DNA of 64,000 nt from IMG/VR virus record IMGVR_UViG_3300037091_000060, positions 1-64,000 of that record; one strand, written 5' to 3'. Source of the DNA: a virus. A program made the translations under genes and the position numbers. This document shows, piece after piece, positions 7,923 through 25,587 of this stretch. Position 1 is the first letter of the stretch; each line of letters begins with the position of its first letter. The notes beneath the pieces are model-generated. The model was not told where the DNA came from, made no database searches, and was given only the letters and a program-made list of their open reading frames with translations.

Positions 7923-8130
7923 ACATCGACAGAACCTAGATAACTATATCACTGGGCGCTACGGCGAGGACCAGTTCCGCAGCGATTTCTGGCCCGACTT
8001 ATCCGCGCACCAAGAATATTGGGAGCACCGCAATCTCTCGGACGTCTATGAATACGACCCGACCGACGATGGCCCCGAGGTCGGGATCATCAACCGCGTC
8101 AACATCGCAATATTTCATCAGGACTTGTGA
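7912..8130 (+). CDS. Hypothetical 72-residue acidic protein
   Basis: Not recognised. Many aromatic and acidic residues (DFWPDLSAHQEYWEH, DVYEYDPTDDGPE). GTG start with GGAGG upstream inside the preceding gene. The stop overlaps the nuclease start as GTGA. Confidence 0.6.
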   Translation: MDNRHRQNLDNYITGRYGEDQFRSDFWPDLSAHQEYWEHRNLSDVYEYDPTDDGPEVGIINRVNIAIFHQDL

Positions 8131-8558
8131 ACGAGCAATCCAAAGAACGCGCGCGCGCCAAACGGCTGATGGACAGCTACAAGCTGACCATCGCGCAGTA
8201 CGATATCATCTGGAATTTTCAAGGCGGTATTTGTTACGCGTGCCGCCAACCGGAACCAGTCAAAGGCCGCCGTCTATCTGTTGACCACTGCCACACGACC
8301 GGATTGATACGCGGGCTGTTGTGCAGCCGCTGCAATCCCATCGTCGGCAAATTGGAAAACGCGTTCAAGCGTTATGGTCTGGGCAAGGTCACGGGACTGG
8401 ATGTGCAGATATTAGCCAGTCGAATCGCCACCTACTTGTGGGAGCCGCCAGCCACTAAAGCGTTGGGCTACAATCACTTCGGATACTCGGGAAAAACTGG
8501 CACCAAGGCGCATCGCAAGCGGCTACGCAAGGAACGTAAAACTAGTGACCCTAATTAG
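8127..8558 (+). CDS. Recombination endonuclease VII-like nuclease
   Basis: The 143-residue protein contains the family's complete core: CYACRQ (about residue 36), LSVDHCHTTGLIRGLLC (about 50-67), CNPIVGKLENA. Enzymes of this type use four cysteines for zinc and a DH motif for catalysis, and resolve branched DNA or act as homing nucleases. Unlike the 4020 gene it has no HTH; the basic C-terminal tail may contact DNA. Confidence 0.8.
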   Translation: MNEQSKERARAKRLMDSYKLTIAQYDIIWNFQGGICYACRQPEPVKGRRLSVDHCHTTGLIRGLLCSRCNPIVGKLENAFKRYGLGKVTGLDVQILASRIATYLWEPPATKALGYNHFGYSGKTGTKAHRKRLRKERKTSDPN

Positions 8559-8578: not shown

Positions 8579-9271
8579 ATGACCACACCAACAGAAATAC
8601 AGAGCATCGAAACCAAGGCTGGCGTTTGGATAACCGCACACCACGCCGTGCTCTACATTCTTCTAGGCATCGCCCTGCTCGCTGGCGTTTATATCTTTGA
8701 ATCCAAGTACGCGGACATCGCGACCGCGAAGGCCAACGCGGCAGAGCAGGCCTTGGCCGTCGAGAAGGACCACAGCACACAGCTTGCGAATCTTTACGCG
8801 GCTAATCAGGCGCAGCGCGACAAGGATAACGCGGCCTTCTTGCTATCTATTTCTCAAACACAGGCACAAACAAGGGTTCAGATCATTCACGACAAGGCGT
8901 TGCCCGCTCCGGATTTAGGGCACCGCATCGAGACGATAACAGGATTCAAGCAGGGTACTATAATGCTCGATGCCTCTCAAGATTTAATCGTGCCGCTGCC
9001 GCTGGCCGTCGACATAGTCACCAGATTAGATCAGGGTATGGCGGACGCGCAAACAGTTGTGCAGCAAGCGGGTATAATTAAAAACCAAGCCGGGACAATC
9101 GCCGACCAGACCGCGATAATCGCAGAGGATAAGAAAGTTTTGACGGCGCAAATCGACACTGACGACAAGGTGTTGAAGGCAGAGAAGGCCAAGAATCGAA
9201 AGAGCAAATTCAAATGGGCAATCGGCATGTACGTTGCCGGATTCCTTACAAGGGAGTTCATCAAACCATGA
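8579..9271 (+). CDS. Membrane-anchored coiled-coil protein
   Basis: The 230-residue protein has a transmembrane helix at about residues 23-42 (VLYILLGIALLAGVYIF), long Ala/Gln/Asp-rich coiled-coil segments (about 45-95 and 140-205), and a weaker hydrophobic stretch at the end. The plan resembles i-spanins and related envelope-spanning phage proteins, but the endolysin lies 32 kb away, so a lysis role is unproven. GAGGAG precedes the ATG. Confidence 0.6.
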   Translation: MTTPTEIQSIETKAGVWITAHHAVLYILLGIALLAGVYIFESKYADIATAKANAAEQALAVEKDHSTQLANLYAANQAQRDKDNAAFLLSISQTQAQTRVQIIHDKALPAPDLGHRIETITGFKQGTIMLDASQDLIVPLPLAVDIVTRLDQGMADAQTVVQQAGIIKNQAGTIADQTAIIAEDKKVLTAQIDTDDKVLKAEKAKNRKSKFKWAIGMYVAGFLTREFIKP

Positions 9272-10878
9272 ACGTATCAAAGGCAGAGCGTGTCTCACCT
9301 GAACTCGTAGAAGCTGAGTACGAAGCGAACGGCGGCAACATCCGCGCGACGGCGGCAGCTTTAGGCATCGAGCGTTCGACCGTGCGCGCCAAGCTGGCCC
9401 TCTTAGGTAAGAAGGATAAGCCGTTGGCCGCTGGCTCCGAAGAGGGAACGAAGACCGTCAAATTAAAGTTGCCAGCGAAAGGTAAGGTCTCGCGCTACAT
9501 CCTGACGTCCGCGCAGAACAACACGTACGTTCACGAATCCGCGTGGGAAAATCTCATGTCACTCGCAGACCATTACGACGCGGAGGTCATTGTCGGGACC
9601 TTCACGTACAACCAGAACGCGTACGGTAAGTTGAGTGTGAAGCGCGGCAAGGACAAGAGCACGCAACAGACATTGTGGTATGACCCGAAATTGACGGACT
9701 ACATCCGCGATGAGCGCGTTGAACTCGCGAACGGTCTCGTGTGGTGCGGAGAAATGAACATCCTGCCGACCGCCGTGAATCCTTTGGCTGGGTTGGACAG
9801 CTACACACAACGCAAGTCTGCAATCTTTCCCCACGCGAAGTTGGCGGCGCGCAGCATCGCAACGATGCAAGGTGAAGGCGTCAAACTGAATTACACCACC
9901 GGAACGGTGACGCAGCGCAACTACATTCAGAAACGCGAGGGTGTGATCGCCGAGTTTCATCACGTCTACGGCGGCCTGCTCGTCGAAGTTAACAGCGATG
10001 GTAATTGGTGGGTGCGCCAGTTGAACCAAGACGGAGAACAGGGAGCGATTCAGGACCTAGGCGTCGTAGTTAAGGACGGCAAGGTCACCACTGGCAACCG
10101 CGTCGAGGCCATCACCTTCGGCGACCTGCACGGCACGTTCGCTGACCCGGTTGTCGTCAAGGCGTCGCTCGATATGCTCGACACGTTGCAGCCGAGGTAT
10201 CAATTCCTTCATGATGTGATGGAAGGTGTCAGCATCAATCCCCACGTTCGCAAGCACAACGATAACCACGCTAAGTTCTCCACATACCTGCGCGGGTACG
10301 GCACACTAAGCGCAGAACTGCGCGACACCGTTGCGCTGCTCGATTCATACACGCGTAAGTTTTCCAGCACGGTCATCGTCGACTCAAACCACGACGACGC
10401 GTGGATTCAGAAGTGGCTGCGTGAGTACGACTACCGGAAGGACCCGGCGAACGCTGAACTATTCTTGGATTTACAAGCGTTCATGTACATCGAACTCCGC
10501 AAAGGTAAGATGCCTCGCGACATCAGCGTGATCGAAGAGGCTATGAGTAAAATAGGTTATAAGAAGGCTAAGTTCCTCCGCGCCGACGAGTCGTTCCTTA
10601 TTTGTGGGCGCAAGATCGAATGCGGGATGCACGGGCACCTCGGGCCGGGTGGCCGCCGTGGCAGTCCAGACAACCTTAGCAAGATGGGCCGTAGAGCGAA
10701 CACGGCACACACGCATAGCACGGGCATCTACAACGGCCTCTACGTGGCCGGAACCAGCAGCAAACTGCGCTGGGACTACAACCGTGGACCGAGTTCGTGG
10801 ACAAACACCCACATTGTAACTTACCCGAATGGCAAAAGAACTTTGGTCACAATATATAATGGGAAATGGAGTGCTTAA
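9268..10878 (+). CDS. Metallophosphatase-like nuclease, possibly T5 A1-like
   Basis: The 536-residue protein has an N-terminal HTH-like region (ELVEAEYEANGGNIRATAAA, about 12-31). It continues with calcineurin-superfamily metal motifs: FGDLHG (about 284), DSNHDDAW (about 371), GMHGHLGPGG (about 452) and HTHSTG (about 480). Length and motif order recall the A1 protein of phage T5, which takes part in host DNA degradation and in second-step DNA transfer. The assignment to A1 is from memory and less certain than the metallophosphatase call. Starts on an ATGA overlap. Confidence 0.6.
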   Translation: MNVSKAERVSPELVEAEYEANGGNIRATAAALGIERSTVRAKLALLGKKDKPLAAGSEEGTKTVKLKLPAKGKVSRYILTSAQNNTYVHESAWENLMSLADHYDAEVIVGTFTYNQNAYGKLSVKRGKDKSTQQTLWYDPKLTDYIRDERVELANGLVWCGEMNILPTAVNPLAGLDSYTQRKSAIFPHAKLAARSIATMQGEGVKLNYTTGTVTQRNYIQKREGVIAEFHHVYGGLLVEVNSDGNWWVRQLNQDGEQGAIQDLGVVVKDGKVTTGNRVEAITFGDLHGTFADPVVVKASLDMLDTLQPRYQFLHDVMEGVSINPHVRKHNDNHAKFSTYLRGYGTLSAELRDTVALLDSYTRKFSSTVIVDSNHDDAWIQKWLREYDYRKDPANAELFLDLQAFMYIELRKGKMPRDISVIEEAMSKIGYKKAKFLRADESFLICGRKIECGMHGHLGPGGRRGSPDNLSKMGRRANTAHTHSTGIYNGLYVAGTSSKLRWDYNRGPSSWTNTHIVTYPNGKRTLVTIYNGKWSA

Positions 10879-15662: not shown

Positions 15663-15996
15663 ATTCATCGGCAAAATATCATTCGAAGGGAAAATGAACG
15701 GTTTACCCTCGGAGATTTTCGGCTTCGTCACGCTCCAAGACGCGGACAACAAAACCATCAGCGACGCGATTGCAGGCCAATTCGGACGCTACCGCGAGAT
15801 GGGTGGAATGGTTTCTGAGAAGGACCAAGGCTCGCCCGTTAATCGGCAAGTCACGTGGCTCGGACACATGTACGTGCCGTTCCACTGGATTGTTAACGTT
15901 CAGGTCGCCCTCACTAATCTGACCCAAGAAATAAGTGTGCCTGATGAAGCGGGCGTCGAGCGTTTAGCTGACGGCACCGAACTGGTGAAACAATGA
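15646..15996 (+). CDS. Hypothetical 116-residue protein
   Basis: Not recognised. Strand-rich soluble protein with segments EIFGFVTLQDADN and WLGHMYVPFHWIVNVQVAL. It ends on an ATGA overlap with the exonuclease gene. Confidence 0.65.
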   Translation: MQQIIKFIGKISFEGKMNGLPSEIFGFVTLQDADNKTISDAIAGQFGRYREMGGMVSEKDQGSPVNRQVTWLGHMYVPFHWIVNVQVALTNLTQEISVPDEAGVERLADGTELVKQ

Positions 15997-16712
15997 TAGT
16001 GGTAGGCTTAGACATCGAAGCAACGGGTCTCGACAAGGTCAAGGACCGCCCAATAGAAATTGGCGTGACCTTGTGGACCACGAAATATAACCGTGGTCTA
16101 GATACCCGTGCGCTTCTTGTCCAGTCTGACGGCGTTCCTGTCACCGAAGAAATCACTGGCATCACTGGCATCACTCAGGGCATGATCGACAGTTTTGGTT
16201 ACACCCCCGAAGAGGCCTACGACGAGGCGATGTACTTCGTGGAGCGCGCCGATGCTATCGTGGCCTTCAATGGTATCCGCTACGACATCCCGATGATGCA
16301 CCAGTGGGCGAAGCGAATTCAGAAACAGTTTCCCGATAAATTAATCATCGACCCGTCTACAGATTTACCGATGCGCAGTCAAGAACTGATTACGATGTGC
16401 GCCAAGATGGGCATTTACTATGATCCGCACGAAGCGGGCGCGGACGTCGGCGCGATGCTCCGGCTGATGGGCAAGTTCGACTTCAACGGCGTGCTCGCAA
16501 GATCGAAAAGTCCTACGGTCGTGGTGCGGTCAATGCAAGGCCGCAACGAGAACGACAAGGTTAAGAAACACAAGTTTCGTTGGAACCCAGATCGCAAGAT
16601 TTGGTGGAAGGCCGTGAAAGAGATAGACCTTATTGACTTGCAACAAGCGGTCAACAACGAATTCGAGATGCAGGTCCTCGACTTGCAGCCCGAAGATTTA
16701 GAAGATCAGTAG
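15993..16712 (+). CDS. DnaQ-like 3'-5' exonuclease
   Basis: The 239-residue protein has DEDDh motifs: DIEATGLD (residues 7-14), AFNGIRYDIPMM (about 91-102) and HEAGADVGAML (about 148-158). The C-terminal 70 residues (HKFRWNPDRKIWWKAV) form an extra basic, aromatic region. It degrades single-stranded DNA from the 3' end for proofreading or processing. It precedes the likely SSB and primase genes. Confidence 0.8.
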   Translation: MIVVGLDIEATGLDKVKDRPIEIGVTLWTTKYNRGLDTRALLVQSDGVPVTEEITGITGITQGMIDSFGYTPEEAYDEAMYFVERADAIVAFNGIRYDIPMMHQWAKRIQKQFPDKLIIDPSTDLPMRSQELITMCAKMGIYYDPHEAGADVGAMLRLMGKFDFNGVLARSKSPTVVVRSMQGRNENDKVKKHKFRWNPDRKIWWKAVKEIDLIDLQQAVNNEFEMQVLDLQPEDLEDQ

Positions 16713-20037: not shown

Positions 20038-20312
20038 AGCACACAGTCATTAATGTTCGTAAACTGCAATCAACCCCCTGTCGATTCGTCGGCAGACCAA
20101 CGGTGTATGGGAATCCGTTTGTTCTATTAAATGAACGAGACAGAGACGAAGTATTAGTGAGATTCGCGGTGTACTGGTATGCGCCAGAGCAGAGGTGGCT
20201 CAGGGAGCGAGCGCTAGCAGAAATCACGGTACCAGTTCTCGGCTGCTTCTGCGCCCCTAAACGATGCCACGCGGATATTATTGCAGGGTACTTAGATTGG
20301 AAGAGACGATGA
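20034..20312 (+). CDS. DUF4326 protein
   Basis: The 92-residue protein has FVGRPTVYGNPF (about 18-29) and GCFCAPKRCHADIIAGYL (about 69-86), the two hallmark segments of DUF4326. The Cys/His cluster may bind metal. TTG start on an overlap with the primase stop. Role unknown, although the family is often found near phage replication genes. Confidence 0.75.
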   Translation: MKHTVINVRKLQSTPCRFVGRPTVYGNPFVLLNERDRDEVLVRFAVYWYAPEQRWLRERALAEITVPVLGCFCAPKRCHADIIAGYLDWKRR

Positions 20313-21538
20313 TTGAACTGCACTGCGACTTCGAGTCTCGCAACCCCGTTTATGGACCTAGTGATGTTGGTTTGCACAACTACATCTTTAGTCCGGAGAC
20401 GGAGCCGTTATTCTTTTGGTATCGACTCGGCGACGGCGAGTACAAGCGCGTGTCCTTTTATCTCGGCGAGATCATCGAGCAATCATCAGAACTTCATATA
20501 GCATTGATGAATCCAAATGTGACGCTCGTCGCGTACAATTCAAGTTTTGAGCGTTACATGTTCCAAAAGCTAAATTATATCATCCCCGCCAGTCGGTTCA
20601 TCGACCCGCAAGTCGGTGGTCGCTATCTGTCTCTCCCGGCCAGCTTGGAGGTACAAGGTAAGGTATTGGGACTCCCGCCACACTTGGCGAAGCGAGAGGG
20701 CGATCTCGTCAATTTCTTTTGTAAGCACCAGATTGTGAAGGCTACGAAGAAGAGAGAAGGCCGCGCGTATTACAATGACTGGAACTCTCACCCGAAAGAG
20801 TGGGCGGAGTTTCTTGAGTACGGTAAGCAGGACGTTGTGGCGGAGGGCGAATTGCTTCGCCGCATGCGCATCTTGGGCGCGCTGCCGCTGCCACCGTTCG
20901 AGCAGAAGATGTGGATTCTTGACCAGAAGATTAATGATCGCGGCATGCCCGTGGACGTCGAGTTCGTTCGCAAGATGTACAACCTTGGTCTCCGCGCGAA
21001 GGCTGAAGCTAAGAAAAACTTTGAAGATTTCACAGGCGTGAAGAACGCCAACTCGCCACAACAAGTCAAGGCGTGGGCCAAACCACAAGGCTACCCGTTC
21101 GACACCTTGAAGAAAGACACCGTCGCCTCGGTGTTGAAAGACCCCGAAATAAAACTCACTGATGCGTGCCGCGCTGCGCTAAAGATGCGCGCAGAGGCCG
21201 CCAGCACTAGCTACCAAAAACTTGGGAAGATTCTCGAATGCGTTTCGCCGGATGGGAGAGTGCATGGTCAATTCATCTTTATGGGTTCAAGCCGTTGCGG
21301 TCGTTGGTCTGGGAACGCAGTCCAGCTACATAACATGGCTCGCCCTGCTGTGGTCGGAGAAATTAAAGACGACAAGGGCAATGTTATCCACCCGGGCTAC
21401 GACTTCGAAGATCAGAAGGTAGTTCAAGAGGCCCGTGCAATGGTTCACGCGGAAGACTACGACGGCATCAAGGCCAAGTACGGCAGCGTACTCCTCGTGG
21501 TCAAGTCGCTCATCCGCACGGTGTTCGTCGCGCCATGA
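20309..21538 (+). CDS. Family A DNA polymerase, N-terminal part (split gene)
   Basis: The 409-residue protein has the 3'-5' exonuclease motifs HCDFESRN (residues 5-12), AYNSSFERYMF (about 73) and EYGKQDVVAEGELL (about 170). It continues into the polymerase thumb and the start of the palm (GSSRCGRWSGNAVQLHNM). It stops at LIRTVFVAP, where intact relatives go straight on to the catalytic motif A. The second part begins at 22151. Two small genes lie between, joined by ATGA overlaps. The two polypeptides probably reassemble. Confidence 0.8.
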   Translation: MIELHCDFESRNPVYGPSDVGLHNYIFSPETEPLFFWYRLGDGEYKRVSFYLGEIIEQSSELHIALMNPNVTLVAYNSSFERYMFQKLNYIIPASRFIDPQVGGRYLSLPASLEVQGKVLGLPPHLAKREGDLVNFFCKHQIVKATKKREGRAYYNDWNSHPKEWAEFLEYGKQDVVAEGELLRRMRILGALPLPPFEQKMWILDQKINDRGMPVDVEFVRKMYNLGLRAKAEAKKNFEDFTGVKNANSPQQVKAWAKPQGYPFDTLKKDTVASVLKDPEIKLTDACRAALKMRAEAASTSYQKLGKILECVSPDGRVHGQFIFMGSSRCGRWSGNAVQLHNMARPAVVGEIKDDKGNVIHPGYDFEDQKVVQEARAMVHAEDYDGIKAKYGSVLLVVKSLIRTVFVAP

Positions 21539-21672
21539 GATACATTAGCTGGCGTTGCAACGAAGTGCTGATGCCAATCCGCCGTGGGCTGTGGCGTTGG
21601 ACCAGTTTCGCGCATCCGAAGTTGCACTTGTTTTACGAGATCAAAGATAACGAACTATGGGAGTGGATGTGA
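21535..21672 (+). CDS. 45-residue protein inside the polymerase split
   Basis: Trp/Arg-rich small protein (RRGLWRWTSFAHPKLHLF) starting on the ATGA at the polymerase break. Not recognised; it may be passenger sequence of the HNH cassette. Confidence 0.4.
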   Translation: MRYISWRCNEVLMPIRRGLWRWTSFAHPKLHLFYEIKDNELWEWM

Positions 21673-22154
21673 TAACAAGAGCGAGAATTTCGAAAAATTG
21701 GCGCGAGCGCAATCGTCGCAACGGGTTATGCGTAGGCTGCACCCGCAAAGCTACCAATGGATTTGCCCTTTGTGACGTATGCCGCAAAGCTAGAGCTAAA
21801 TTTTCAGAGGGCCGCGTCGAGAAAGGCTTATGCCTTCGATGCATCAACGTCTCAGAACCCGGAAGAACAAAATGTTTGGACTGCGTACTCAAGGCCGCTT
21901 TGTATCAATTGAAACGAAGAGGTCTACCACAGAACGAACTTGAGATAGCTGCGGTAGCGTTTCATAATTATGCTGGATTCTGCGCTGCATGTCGTTTGCC
22001 GATTCCAACGGGTAAAGAGCGTTTTGACCACGACGATAGAAATAAAAAGTTTCGTGGAATTGTTTGTCACGGATGCAACGTAGCTATCGGTTTTGCCGAA
22101 GAGAACATTCAGAGATTATCTGGGTGTATCCGCTATCTGGAGAAGCAGCGATGA
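21669..22154 (+). CDS. Endonuclease VII-like HNH nuclease interrupting the polymerase gene
   Basis: The 161-residue protein has two N-terminal zinc pairs (CVGC..CDVC and CLRC..CLDC, about residues 18-75). The nuclease core is CAACRLPI (about 105), FDHDDRNKKFRGIVCHGCN (about 118-136). GTG 21669 is preferred: GGGAG is five bases upstream and the GTGA overlap fits. ATG 21657 is the alternative. Its position exactly in the polymerase active-site region is typical of homing nucleases that target conserved sequence. Confidence 0.75.
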   Translation: MITRARISKNWRERNRRNGLCVGCTRKATNGFALCDVCRKARAKFSEGRVEKGLCLRCINVSEPGRTKCLDCVLKAALYQLKRRGLPQNELEIAAVAFHNYAGFCAACRLPIPTGKERFDHDDRNKKFRGIVCHGCNVAIGFAEENIQRLSGCIRYLEKQR

Positions 22155-23246
22155 CAACACGTTTTAACGTCTGCGATCTTTAATGCTATAGAAACCCGCG
22201 TCGGCGCGTGGCTGGCGGGGTGTACCGATTTGATGGACGTGTTCGTGCCGTACACCGACGTGTTTGGTGTTTACCAGCGCAACGGTCGCGACCCGTACCT
22301 CGCGTTCGCGTGCAAGATGTTTGGTCTCACGTACGACGTTCTTTACGCCGACTACAAAGGTAGAAACGGCAAAGAGCGCAAGGCTGCCGCGAAGCGTATG
22401 CGACAAGTCGCGAAGCCGGGAGTGCTGGGAGCCATCTACCGTCTCGCTGGCGGTATACTTATTCGCATTCACACAGACGAGTGTAAGCTGGCGCAAGCGA
22501 AGGGCGAGATAAAGGCCGACGAGTGTGGCTGCCCCAAGGGCAAGACTGGTCTCTGGGACTACGCGGACAAGATGGGCGTTGAGATGTCACAAAAACAATC
22601 GCACGAGGTGGTGGACATCTTCCGCAACTCGTACCCAGAAATATGTGACCCGAAGGTTGGAATTTGGAAGCAGTTGGAACTCGCGGTCGCCGACGTGATG
22701 CACCCGGACCACCCGGCCACGGTTCGTTATATCGGCCCGGGCAACTGCGTGAAGATCGACCGCATCAACTTCATTGACCCAGTGACGGGTGAGCAAGAGC
22801 GTCACCCGATGATGAGGATGCAATTACCGAGTGGCCGTTACCTGCACTATTTAGACGCGCGTCTCGAATCAACGATGATGCCGTGGAAGGGACAAGACGA
22901 CGATGGAAACGAAATTGACGTTTACCGTGACAGCCTCATTTACGCCGGAACAAATCAGAAGACTAAGCAGTGGGATATCTGGATTTCCACCCACGGCGGG
23001 AAACTCTTTGAAAATCTCGTCCAAGGAATCGCAAGAGATATTCTGGCCTACTGTCTTCTCCAATTTGAGTTGCGCGAAATGCCAGTCGTCGGGCACGTCC
23101 ACGACGAGGGTATCACGCTGGTGGAAGACGATTTGCTCTCGCCTACGTACCACGACATGGTCGAGATAATGAGTACGCCCATCAACTGGGCACCGGGCCT
23201 GCTGCTGGGCGCGGACGGATACGAAGAAACGTACTACCACAAGTGA
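22151..23246 (+). CDS. Family A DNA polymerase, C-terminal part (needs +1 frameshift)
   Basis: The first ten codons from ATG 22151 read MTTRFNVCDL and hit TAA at 22181. Reading then resumes one base ahead as NAIETRVGAWLAGC and runs to 23246. Together they restore motif A with the catalytic Asp (VCD-x-NAIETR). Motif B (RQVAKPGVLGAIYRLAGG) and motif C (VGHVHDEGI) follow. The shift site is CTT TAA, like the CTT TGA of bacterial release factor 2. Without the shift, a start at 22230 would lack the catalytic Asp. A one-base sequencing or natural indel is the main alternative. Confidence 0.75.
22175..22184 (+). other. Putative +1 frameshift site GAT CTT TAA T
   Basis: A peptidyl-tRNA on CTT could slip to TTT and read AAT next, giving VCDLNAIETR. 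No Shine-Dalgarno-like stimulator is seen just upstream, unlike release factor 2, so programmed shifting is uncertain. Confidence 0.45.
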
Positions 23247-23253
23247 GGATAAG

Positions 23254-23427
23254 ATGAGACTACAAACAGACGACCGTTGCATGATTTGCGAACAAGACGA
23301 ACCGGGAGAACTCTCGTGGTGCACGTACTGCGGACTGAGACTTTGTTTCGATTGTGTCGCCGACCACGAAGAGTATTGCGATGACAATGACGCGGACGGA
23401 TATGAGGAGACGTACTACCACAAATGA
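23254..23427 (+). CDS. 57-residue zinc protein, copy 1
   Basis: Three or four Cys pairs (CMIC, CTYCG, CFDC and a later C) suggest zinc binding. Its last nine residues, GYEETYYHK, repeat the C-terminus of the polymerase just upstream, showing that the polymerase tail was copied onto this gene. GAGGATAAG precedes the ATG. A second copy of the body lies at 23563. Confidence 0.65.
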   Translation: MRLQTDDRCMICEQDEPGELSWCTYCGLRLCFDCVADHEEYCDDNDADGYEETYYHK

Positions 23428-23555
23428 GCGATAAACCTAACTGTCCGAACTCAGATATAGCCCAGAAGGTGCATCACAACTGTATTCAAAAGATTGTCAA
23501 TGGTCGCCCCGCGTGGGTCTGTCCACTGTGTTGGAAAATTGTATACATAAAGTGA
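23424..23555 (+). CDS. 43-residue zinc-finger-like protein
   Basis: A CPN...HHNC...CPLC arrangement could hold one zinc. Short, with ATGA overlap upstream. It separates the two copies of the duplicated zinc protein. Confidence 0.5.
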   Translation: MSDKPNCPNSDIAQKVHHNCIQKIVNGRPAWVCPLCWKIVYIK

Positions 23556-23562
23556 GGACAAA

Positions 23563-23718
23563 ATGAGATTACAAACAGACGACCGTTGCATGATTTGCGG
23601 ACAAGACGAACCGACAGAACTCTCAAATTGCACGTACTGCGGGCTGGGACTTTGTTTCGATTGTGTCGTCGACCACGAAGAGTATTGCGATGACAATGAC
23701 GCGGACGGTCGGTCATAA
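23563..23718 (+). CDS. 51-residue zinc protein, copy 2
   Basis: Same Cys pairs as 23254-23427 (CMICG, CTYCG, CFDC) but ending in DGRS instead of the polymerase-derived tail, so this may be the older form. GAGGACAAA precedes the ATG. Confidence 0.6.
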   Translation: MRLQTDDRCMICGQDEPTELSNCTYCGLGLCFDCVVDHEEYCDDNDADGRS

Positions 23719-23773: not shown

Positions 23774-25159
23774 ATGAGCAAAAAACAGCTAGTTATTCAG
23801 CACGATTTATCGAAGTTAGACGCACCCACGCTGGCGCAGTATCTGCGCGACGTCAGCGAGTTCATCGGGCTGGACCCAGACCTGAACGCACTCGACACCA
23901 TCTGGATGCAGAACGAGAACGGCCCCGGCCAGTCGCTGGTAGTGTACGCGCGCCGTGGCACCGCCGAGATTCTCCGCAACAAGCTAAACATCGTGGTCGA
24001 GTCCCTTACTCAGGTCACTGTCGGCGGTTCGATTATCTTCACAGCGACAGGTTCAGATGGCAATCGCAAAGAGATCGCAGTCGGTTCGAAGTACATCACA
24101 GGATTAACGGGCAAGGCACTGGACGACGCGATTATGACCGCGAGCACCCGCGCGCTGCGCCGCCTCACGATGCAGTTCACGACCCTCGGCCTGCTCGACG
24201 AGAGCGAGGTTAAGGCGACCGTGGGCGACGCCACGAACCCCGCCACTGGCGCAAAACTCGAAGGCGGCCCTATCGCCGCCGTCTTCCTCGTGCCGACCGG
24301 CCCCGCAAATAACGCGCCGGGTCGCGACGTCACGCTGCCGACACCAGATCAAGCCGAGTTTGTCTCTCCAATAGGCCGTAAGAAGGGATTCACGCCTGTA
24401 GAAACCACTAACGTCCCCGCGCTGCCAGCGGAGCCAGTAGTCATCACCGGAGTTATCGCGGTTGGCGGCGGCTCGACCGAAGCGGATTTAGGCAAGCCAA
24501 CGATGCAAGAAATGCGCGACGAGGCCACCGCCTTCCTCGCGGGGAAAGCAGCGGCAAAACCCGTCTGTGTCCTGAGTAACGGTCTTGATAAAGTGGATAA
24601 ACCGAAGCGCGCCCGCAAGCCAAGGAACAGCGTATCGCTGGAGACCGGCCCGGAAGCGGAGGTCTACTCCCCCGGCGCGATAACAGCGGTCGTCCAGGCC
24701 ATTATGACCGCAGACGCCGCGCCCGCCCCTGAGTTCCCCACGGGATTCCCAATTCATGAGGTTAAAGCAACCGCGTTTGTCGCGGCCTTGGTCCCCATAG
24801 TGTCCACCCCGGACCCGCTAGCGGTTCTGGCAACCCAGGCCGCTAATTGTGAGATACCGGCCCCCGTAGCGCCTCTCGCGCAGGTGATAGCTGACGCGTT
24901 CGTAGGGAAGCCGTCTGTAGAGCAGATGGCCGACTACCGCAAGAAGGTCTCGGTGTTCACGTCCCAGCTACCGTCAAGTGAGAATCTGGGCAGCGTCCAA
25001 AAGATGCGCGCCTTCATCACTAGGATGTCTGGCACCGCGCCACAGTTCATGACCGTCGACCAGTGGGAAGAAACGCTGGCGTGGTTCGAGTCTTTCGTAG
25101 GACGCAACCAGATCAAAGGCCTTGTCACCTACATCAACGACGCGCTGGGAGTCAAATAG
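23774..25159 (+). CDS. Putative RecT-like single-strand annealing protein
   Basis: The 461-residue protein has a conserved N-terminal region (about 20-150): [62 protein letters not shown] long Ala/Pro/Val-rich linker and a C-terminal helical domain (about 375-461) follow. The N-terminal pattern resembles phage recombination mediators that anneal single strands. A RecB-type nuclease nearby (28637) would make the usual exonuclease-annealase pair. This family call is moderate. Confidence 0.5.
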
Positions 25160-25587
25160 TGCGAAAAGTTCAATCGAACCTACGCTGTAATAGACTTTGT
25201 AAGTTTTGCGATAAGGTGTTCAAAGTTCTGCGGTCTCGTGTGAAGAAAGGAAAAGGAAAATATTGTTCTCAAAAGTGTTTTAAGCAAAGTGCCCGAAAGG
25301 GTTACACTAGAACAGACGGCTACCGCGTAACTTCGATTGATGGTACTCACTGGTTTGAGCATAGATATGTGATGATGCGCCACCTTGGCCGCGTTTTGAA
25401 ACGAACTGAGACAGTTCATCATAAAAACGGCGTTCGGCACGATAACCGAATCGAGAATTTAGAACTACGGTTAGGTCAACACGGTCCCGGTCAGAGCACC
25501 GAGGCATCAGTTCAAAACGCGGTTCAGCTTTTAGTTGAAGCAGGTTATTTAGTGATAAGACCGGGAGATGTAAAATACATTCAATGA
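25159..25587 (+). CDS. HNH_3-type homing endonuclease
   Basis: The 142-residue protein has a CKFC...CSQKC zinc knuckle (about 14-40). It then has [17 protein letters not shown] and [18 protein letters not shown] (about 88-105), the canonical HNH_3 core with an Asn-rich end. GTG start overlaps the previous stop (TAGTG), and its stop overlaps the helicase start. It belongs to a different HNH subfamily from the endonuclease VII-like genes. Confidence 0.8.

Follow-up and report, generated by a model that had tools for sequence, protein, structure and literature searches.

How can a phage make a working DNA polymerase from a gene that is cut directly in front of its catalytic aspartate, with other genes lodged in the gap? 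This question is raised by a locus in the IMG/VR virus record IMGVR_UViG_3300037091_000060, of which we analyzed positions 1 to 64,000 (a stretch of 64,000 nucleotides, hereafter the window). The reading that we favor, and consider probable as a whole, combines a two-chain polymerase with an old split, HNH genes homing into the junction, and a +1 ribosomal frameshift at CUU_UAA. Its parts do not carry equal weight, and each is taken up below with the evidence that bears on it. All features of the polymerase locus described here lie on the plus strand.

A family A polymerase in two parts

Part 1 of the polymerase (20309 to 21538) comprises a 3'-5' exonuclease domain and the N-terminal polymerase portion, as judged by its match to phrog_17 (2.4e-47), its fold, and an identical end point in relatives. 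Its C-terminus, ...LIRTVFVAP (...VKSLIRTVFVAP) directly followed by the stop codon, falls in the loop preceding motif A. Exactly 612 nucleotides (nt; 21539 to 22150) separate this stop from the ATG of MTTRFNVCD, where part 2 starts. They hold a 45-residue gene (21535 to 21672), which has homologues at the same junction in two relatives (L002 and L026), and an endonuclease VII-like HNH gene (21657 to 22154; PF02945, 2.4e-9; phrog_2633 endonuclease VII, 4.1e-13), a candidate free-standing homing endonuclease. The genes overlap by ATGA at 21535 (part 1 and the 45-residue gene) and at 22151, and by GTGA at 21669 if the HNH gene uses that GTG. The initial annotation of this DNA had already described the VFVAP end, the two genes in the 612 bases and the ATGA/GTGA overlaps, and the coordinates and Pfam match bear it out, with the GTGA overlap depending on a start at GTG 21669. 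A GGAG at 22139 to 22142, 8 nt 5' of the ATG, is the likely ribosome-binding site of part 2, and its equivalent in two relatives, L008 and L010, is AAGGAG. The first ten codons of part 2 (22151 to 22180) encode MTTRFNVCDL and include the motif A catalytic Asp (GAT, 22175-22177), a residue present in all relatives. The remainder of part 2, with the palm and fingers and motifs B and C, runs from 22182 to 23246 in the +1 frame relative to the ATG; it is supported by phrog_17 (4.3e-32), by its fold, and by a nonsynonymous substitution rate (dN) far below the synonymous rate (dS). The start of the second polypeptide at RFNVCD, as first annotated, is thus present in the ATG frame, but that frame stops at once and the rest of part 2 is found in the other.

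The two parts align to consecutive regions of a single profile, phrog_17 "DNA polymerase" (positions 673-1003 for part 1 and 1015-1232 for part 2). Their AlphaFold models had predicted local distance difference test (pLDDT) scores of 88.6 and 89.9, and Foldseek matched them to phage G20c Pol I (4.3e-8) and Bst (Bacillus) Pol I (1e-7), respectively. The Pfam family A model PF00476 gave no match to this polymerase, which marks it as very divergent, and a sequence search of solved structures also returned no match to it, whereas the fold comparison did. The motif A Asp, the Glu of NAIE, the Lys and Arg of motif B and the HDE of motif C are conserved over the two chains; the motif B K and R and the motif C H-D-E are invariant. 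By these profile matches and predicted folds, the gene pair is a divergent family A polymerase whose active site is complete across two chains. The break adjoins the catalytic Asp as initially described, part 2 starting 8 residues before it.

Relatives were collected by searches of IMG/VR and GTDB genomes, which yielded 11 distinct loci, or 12 members with the window, at identities down to about 47%. Further searches with the deepest members (L029 and L030) found no additional close member. The cut is at the same place in 12 of 12 members, and the split clade received 100% bootstrap support on each half. Four members (L005, L028, L029, and L012) have no cassette: their halves abut or overlap, with 26-38 nt between the matched ends, in differing frames and with ATGA overlaps. 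As these members are equally split, the present HNH cassette need not have caused the split and occupies a junction that was already open, which leaves the earlier description of a polymerase "split by an HNH cassette" unsupported. Uninterrupted genes in related phages had been named as a finding that would speak against a true split; all 12 members are split, and the outgroups that are intact (L031-L033, with 30 nt in frame at this point) are only about 30% identical. The AhaSv and Chi polymerases are likewise single genes. This distribution makes the split an old one that has become fixed in the lineage. One relative came from a metagenome bin labeled as an uncultured archaeon; because this bin has a family A polymerase gene on a different contig as well, its label is a doubtful guide to the host.

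The same cut was found a second time. The polymerase of the cultured OM43 phage MEP401 is known to be split (PMC10580990), and its second part starts with MILNADAKALEW, in which the motif A Asp is residue 6. Among IMG/VR loci of the MEP401 type, a clade of Zobellviridae, all 79 that were readable (of 80) are cut at this spot, and in two of these the halves overlap by ATGA with nothing inserted. In both clades the cut in the family A polymerase lies a few residues ahead of the motif A Asp and is fixed, and the MEP401-like phages also have a small gene in the gap. They differ in that MEP401 has no HNH gene between the halves and that none of the 79 IMG/VR loci has an extra base at motif A; an extra A occurs in one GenBank relative. 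The MEP401 polymerase is a distant lineage of independent origin: intact lineages are sister to each split clade in the tree (HMO-2011 and HTVC033P; AhaSv, Chi, and L031-L033), which makes the two cuts separate events. The initial remark that a break this close to the Asp is unusual needs tempering accordingly. Because MEP401 is a cultured phage, a two-chain polymerase cut here is compatible with life.

Two GenBank records with a split polymerase showed further variation. In the MEP401-type ctOsX528 (L068, MW202697, approximately 1785-1835) an extra A follows the motif A Asp, as GAC GCA AAA A GCT CTT GAA, in a single record and a short run of A; motif A may thus contain a +1 shift in a second case. 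Between the halves of this polymerase lies an R67 dihydrofolate reductase-like gene. In L069 (MW202796, 537-6006) the halves are 3.6 kb apart with seven genes between them, two of which are a cytosine methyltransferase gene and a stomatin-like gene.

In phage polymerase genes, HNH genes are often carried by introns, as in SPO1-type phages. The cassette could, on that model, be a self-splicing intron, or else a split intein such as the one reported with an HNH gene in the polymerase of phage MIJ3 (PMC6892783), and the two parts would be restored to one chain. We give this explanation next to no credence. Rfam searches found no intron in the window or in nine relatives, and the covariance check of the cassette proposed with the initial annotation thus gave no sign of an intron. 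A group I or group II intron was rejected on this result together with the split state of the four cassette-free relatives. An intein was rejected because part 1 ends at polymerase sequence and part 2 has 8 residues before the Asp, with no residues past the polymerase ends and no intein halves. Splicing would, moreover, not remove the extra T described below. Relatives that are split without a cassette and the lack of any splicing sign support the earlier proposal that the polymerase has to work as two chains, which we regard as very likely. Part 1 and part 2 would be made separately, the latter by stop-start coupling or from its own ribosome-binding site, and the two chains would assemble without a covalent bond, for which the fixed split, the purifying selection and the identical cut in cultured MEP401 speak indirectly.

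An extra T behind the catalytic codon

Part 2 opens as ATG ACA ACA CGT TTT AAC GTC TGC GAT CTT and then meets an in-frame TAA (22181-22183). The remainder of the polymerase, NAIETRVGAWLAG... (NAIETRVGAW...), starts at 22182 in the next frame, so that the junction reads GAT CTT T AAT GCT with one extra T at 22181. The open reading frame (ORF) listed by program for this region, 22230-23246, lacks motif A. Two relatives from separate assemblies, L008 and L010, read GAC CTT T AAC and have the same extra T at the same dinucleotide, always after CTT, whereas the nine relatives without the extra base read GAC CTT AAC, GAC CTC AAT, GAT TTG AAT and similar. In the three T-bearing phages, the ATG frame alone holds the motif A Asp and the other frame alone all that follows the next Leu, so the Asp joins the remaining polymerase, and part 2 can be active, only by way of a +1 shift. 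Scanning IMG/VR for the pattern AAYGTNTGYGAYCTTTAAY added no polymerase to those of L008 and L010.

A single-base change in a homopolymer (TT to TTT) is a familiar form of sequencing or assembly error, and the initial annotation had allowed for a read error here. The T recurs at the same position in three contigs from separate assemblies, with L008 and L010 only 76-78% identical to the window in part 2, and no other polymerase frame break occurs in the 12 genomes (9289 codons). On these grounds an error was rejected, and we attach very little probability to it.

We then compared codon changes downstream of the shift. Across the downstream portion of part 2, L008 and L010 differ with a dN of 0.142 and a dS of 2.31. 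In the 17 codons directly after the shift, there were eight synonymous codon changes and one nonsynonymous change between L008 and L010 (binomial, ~1e-4), and 10 synonymous changes and none nonsynonymous between the window and L010 (~1e-6); both figures assume that a quarter of changes are synonymous. Mostly synonymous change right after the shift argues for translation of the shifted frame that begins at the shift or earlier and not only at the ATG at 22233, and for selection on the reading frame past the extra T.

These 17 codons bear directly on an alternative in which part 2 starts downstream, for example at ATG 22233, and lacks motif A. The enzyme of the three phages would then be dead or non-polymerizing, and their replication would proceed in some other way. 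Most relatives have an in-frame ATG within DLM, and the mechanically called ORF starts at 22230, as this alternative would have it. Yet the codons between the shift and ATG 22233 change almost only synonymously among the three phages, and motifs B and C are intact. The search of the 11 virus records for a further polymerase of family A or B came up empty, a weak test given that PF00476 misses this known polymerase too. We therefore consider a dead second chain improbable.

A +1 shift at CUU_UAA (22178 to 22184, CTT TAA T; CTT TAA C in L008 and L010) likely makes a part 2 with the catalytic Asp, judging from the arrangement of the frames. In the window and these two relatives, ribosomes would slip +1 on CUU_U with UAA in the A site, as in the bacterial release factor 2 gene prfB, to give ...VCD-L-N-AIETR.... 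The site in the window reads AACGTCTGCGAT CTT TAA T, and CUU_U with a stop codon in the A site is present in all three phages. CUU_U was by far the most efficient among tested variants of the prfB shift site (PMC5009743). As in prfB, CUU precedes the U of a stop codon near the start of the ORF, and the full product would need a +1 shift. The stimulators of prfB are a point against the comparison, and by them the site stands outside the prfB class: in the window there is no Shine-Dalgarno-like element just upstream, the spacer codon is GAU instead of UAU or UCU, and the stop context is UAA-U instead of UGA-C (elements per PMC13245932). No transfer RNA gene was found in the window, so no phage-borne frameshift suppressor was seen within it. 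An RNA hairpin predicted at 22138-22184, and at the equivalent places in L008 and L010, pairs the part 2 ribosome-binding site with the CUUUAA shift site. Its z-scores were -3.15 for L010, -1.43 for L008, and -1.09 for the window, and the outer pairings are in different registers; a hairpin between ribosome-binding site and shift site is a weak lead.

Two other routes through the junction were considered and rejected. Stop-codon readthrough from the HNH ORF into part 2 would give SAIFNAIE without the catalytic Asp; the frame that these two share follows automatically from the ATGA overlap plus one base. An alternative genetic code fails because TGA readthrough in the part 1 frame soon meets other stops.

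Junction cassettes and possible homing

The junction holds an HNH gene in 5 of the 12 members, and these genes belong to two families: those of the window, L007, L008, and L030 are of the endonuclease VII type (the L008 match falling just under the Pfam cut-off), and that of L010 is of the HNH_3 type with a possible DNA-binding region. Other small ORFs occur there in L002, L026, and L009, those of L002 and L026 being the homologues of the 45-residue gene (pairwise BLASTP of 9e-8 for L002). In the window, the HNH gene was apparently placed between the 45-residue gene and part 2. From its type and position, it is probably a free-standing homing endonuclease. The junction may have served as a landing site for free-standing HNH genes and small ORFs, harmless as the gene was already cut, with the HNH genes probably spreading by homing into the junctions of cassette-free relatives.

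It is conceivable, though the less likely course in our view, that the split goes back to the HNH cassette, or to a predecessor at this site, which some relatives later lost. T4 gene 39/60 and Aeh1 nrdA were split by HNH insertions (PMC2988022, PMC3014915), and an HNH gene is also present in the deep member L030. Set against this, cassette-free members are spread over several branches, including the deep L029 and L012, and the presence of two nuclease families means that at least some cassettes were later arrivals.

We also looked for traces of transfer by comparing the window with its nearest relative, L007. The two are 94-97% identical over much of both halves. On the left side of the cassette, identity is 62-66% over approximately 200 nt; directly past the shift site it is 73% for 45 nt and then exceeds 95%. 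This drop resembles a conversion tract from a different donor but is no more than suggestive. All three T-bearing phages have GGAGAAGCAGCGATGA and TTTAACGTCTGCGAYCTTTAAYGC in common, although in trees the window clusters with L007 instead of L008 and L010; this fits movement of the right arm and the T as one. The extra T is present in three of five HNH-bearing junctions and none of seven HNH-free junctions (Fisher p=0.045). Several observations weigh against the homing reading and its link to the T. The association is marginal, with HNH-bearing L007 and L030 lacking the T; the window and L007 dip in identity at 20312-20850 as well (~82%), so the tract is not unique; and homing activity is read from gene type and position only.

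The closest known arrangement is that of T4 39-mobA-60.1-60, where an HNH insertion split a topoisomerase subunit and the downstream gene needs ribosomal bypassing (PMC3014915, PMC5009743). In both systems an enzyme subunit is split in its active-site region, a small ORF and an HNH gene lie between the halves, and recoding occurs or is proposed early in the downstream part; in T4 the halves assemble. Here the enzyme is a family A polymerase and not a topoisomerase, the proposed recoding is a +1 shift at codon 10 and not a 50-nt hop, predicted where that of T4 is known, and the split is lineage-wide and persists without HNH genes. Aeh1 nrdA, split by mobE, and the split gene 43 of phage 25 also consist of pieces that meet at a homing endonuclease gene, and both encode active enzymes (PMC2988022). 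Unlike the polymerase studied here, they are a ribonucleotide reductase and a family B polymerase and involve no recoding. SPO1/Bastille-type phages likewise have HNH genes aimed at family A polymerase genes, whereas in our locus there is no intron RNA and the gene stays split.

By analogy, the HNH gene and a putative recoding element at the split may form a T4-type system, in which the element would protect from cleavage. The T would have been kept because it travels with the HNH cassettes and protects the junction from cleavage, following the T4 gene 60 precedent; this is the least certain part of the favored reading. Regulation of the amount of the catalytic chain is an alternative. That the T is a co-travelling immunity mutation of the HNH cassettes, tolerated owing to a strong +1 site, or that the shift was recruited to set the level of the catalytic chain, we put forward only tentatively.

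Neighboring genes and implications

Repeats and further genes of note were found in the window. The last 38 nt of the polymerase (23210-23247) are repeated at 89% identity at 23391-23428, 181 nt downstream, so that the polymerase and a small Cys-rich gene (23254-23427) have a DADGYEETYYHK-type tail in common. The small Cys-rich gene is duplicated (23241-23399 and 23550-23708; 159 nt, 92%). A further HNH gene (25063-25587; HNH_3, 9e-9) overlaps the 3' end of a 461-amino-acid gene (23774-25159) and is possibly another homing gene in the replication cluster. A stronger endonuclease VII-like gene, separate from the junction nuclease, lies at 8127-8558 (phrog_307, 1.2e-27). The gene at 15993-16712 resembles a "DNA polymerase exonuclease subunit" (phrog_192, 4.2e-23), although part 1 has its own exonuclease-like domain. 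At 9214-10878 we found a gene with a close match to a "DNA transfer protein" family (phrog_1745, 2.5e-168), a family known from T5-like phages; the virus record is 100 kb.

Two independent polymerase lineages were cut at the same loop and stayed cut, which points to a site where family A polymerases can be divided and still work. Such a site may serve the engineering of split polymerases and help to explain how a gene in pieces becomes fixed. Should the +1 shift be real, production of the active-site chain of a replicative polymerase would depend on programmed frameshifting within two residues of its catalytic Asp. The link to HNH genes makes the T4 gene 60 model, in which an endonuclease and a recoding element form one mobile unit, testable in an unrelated gene. 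If it holds, this locus would be a second, independent case of a mobile endonuclease with a recoding element, inside the active site of a DNA polymerase.

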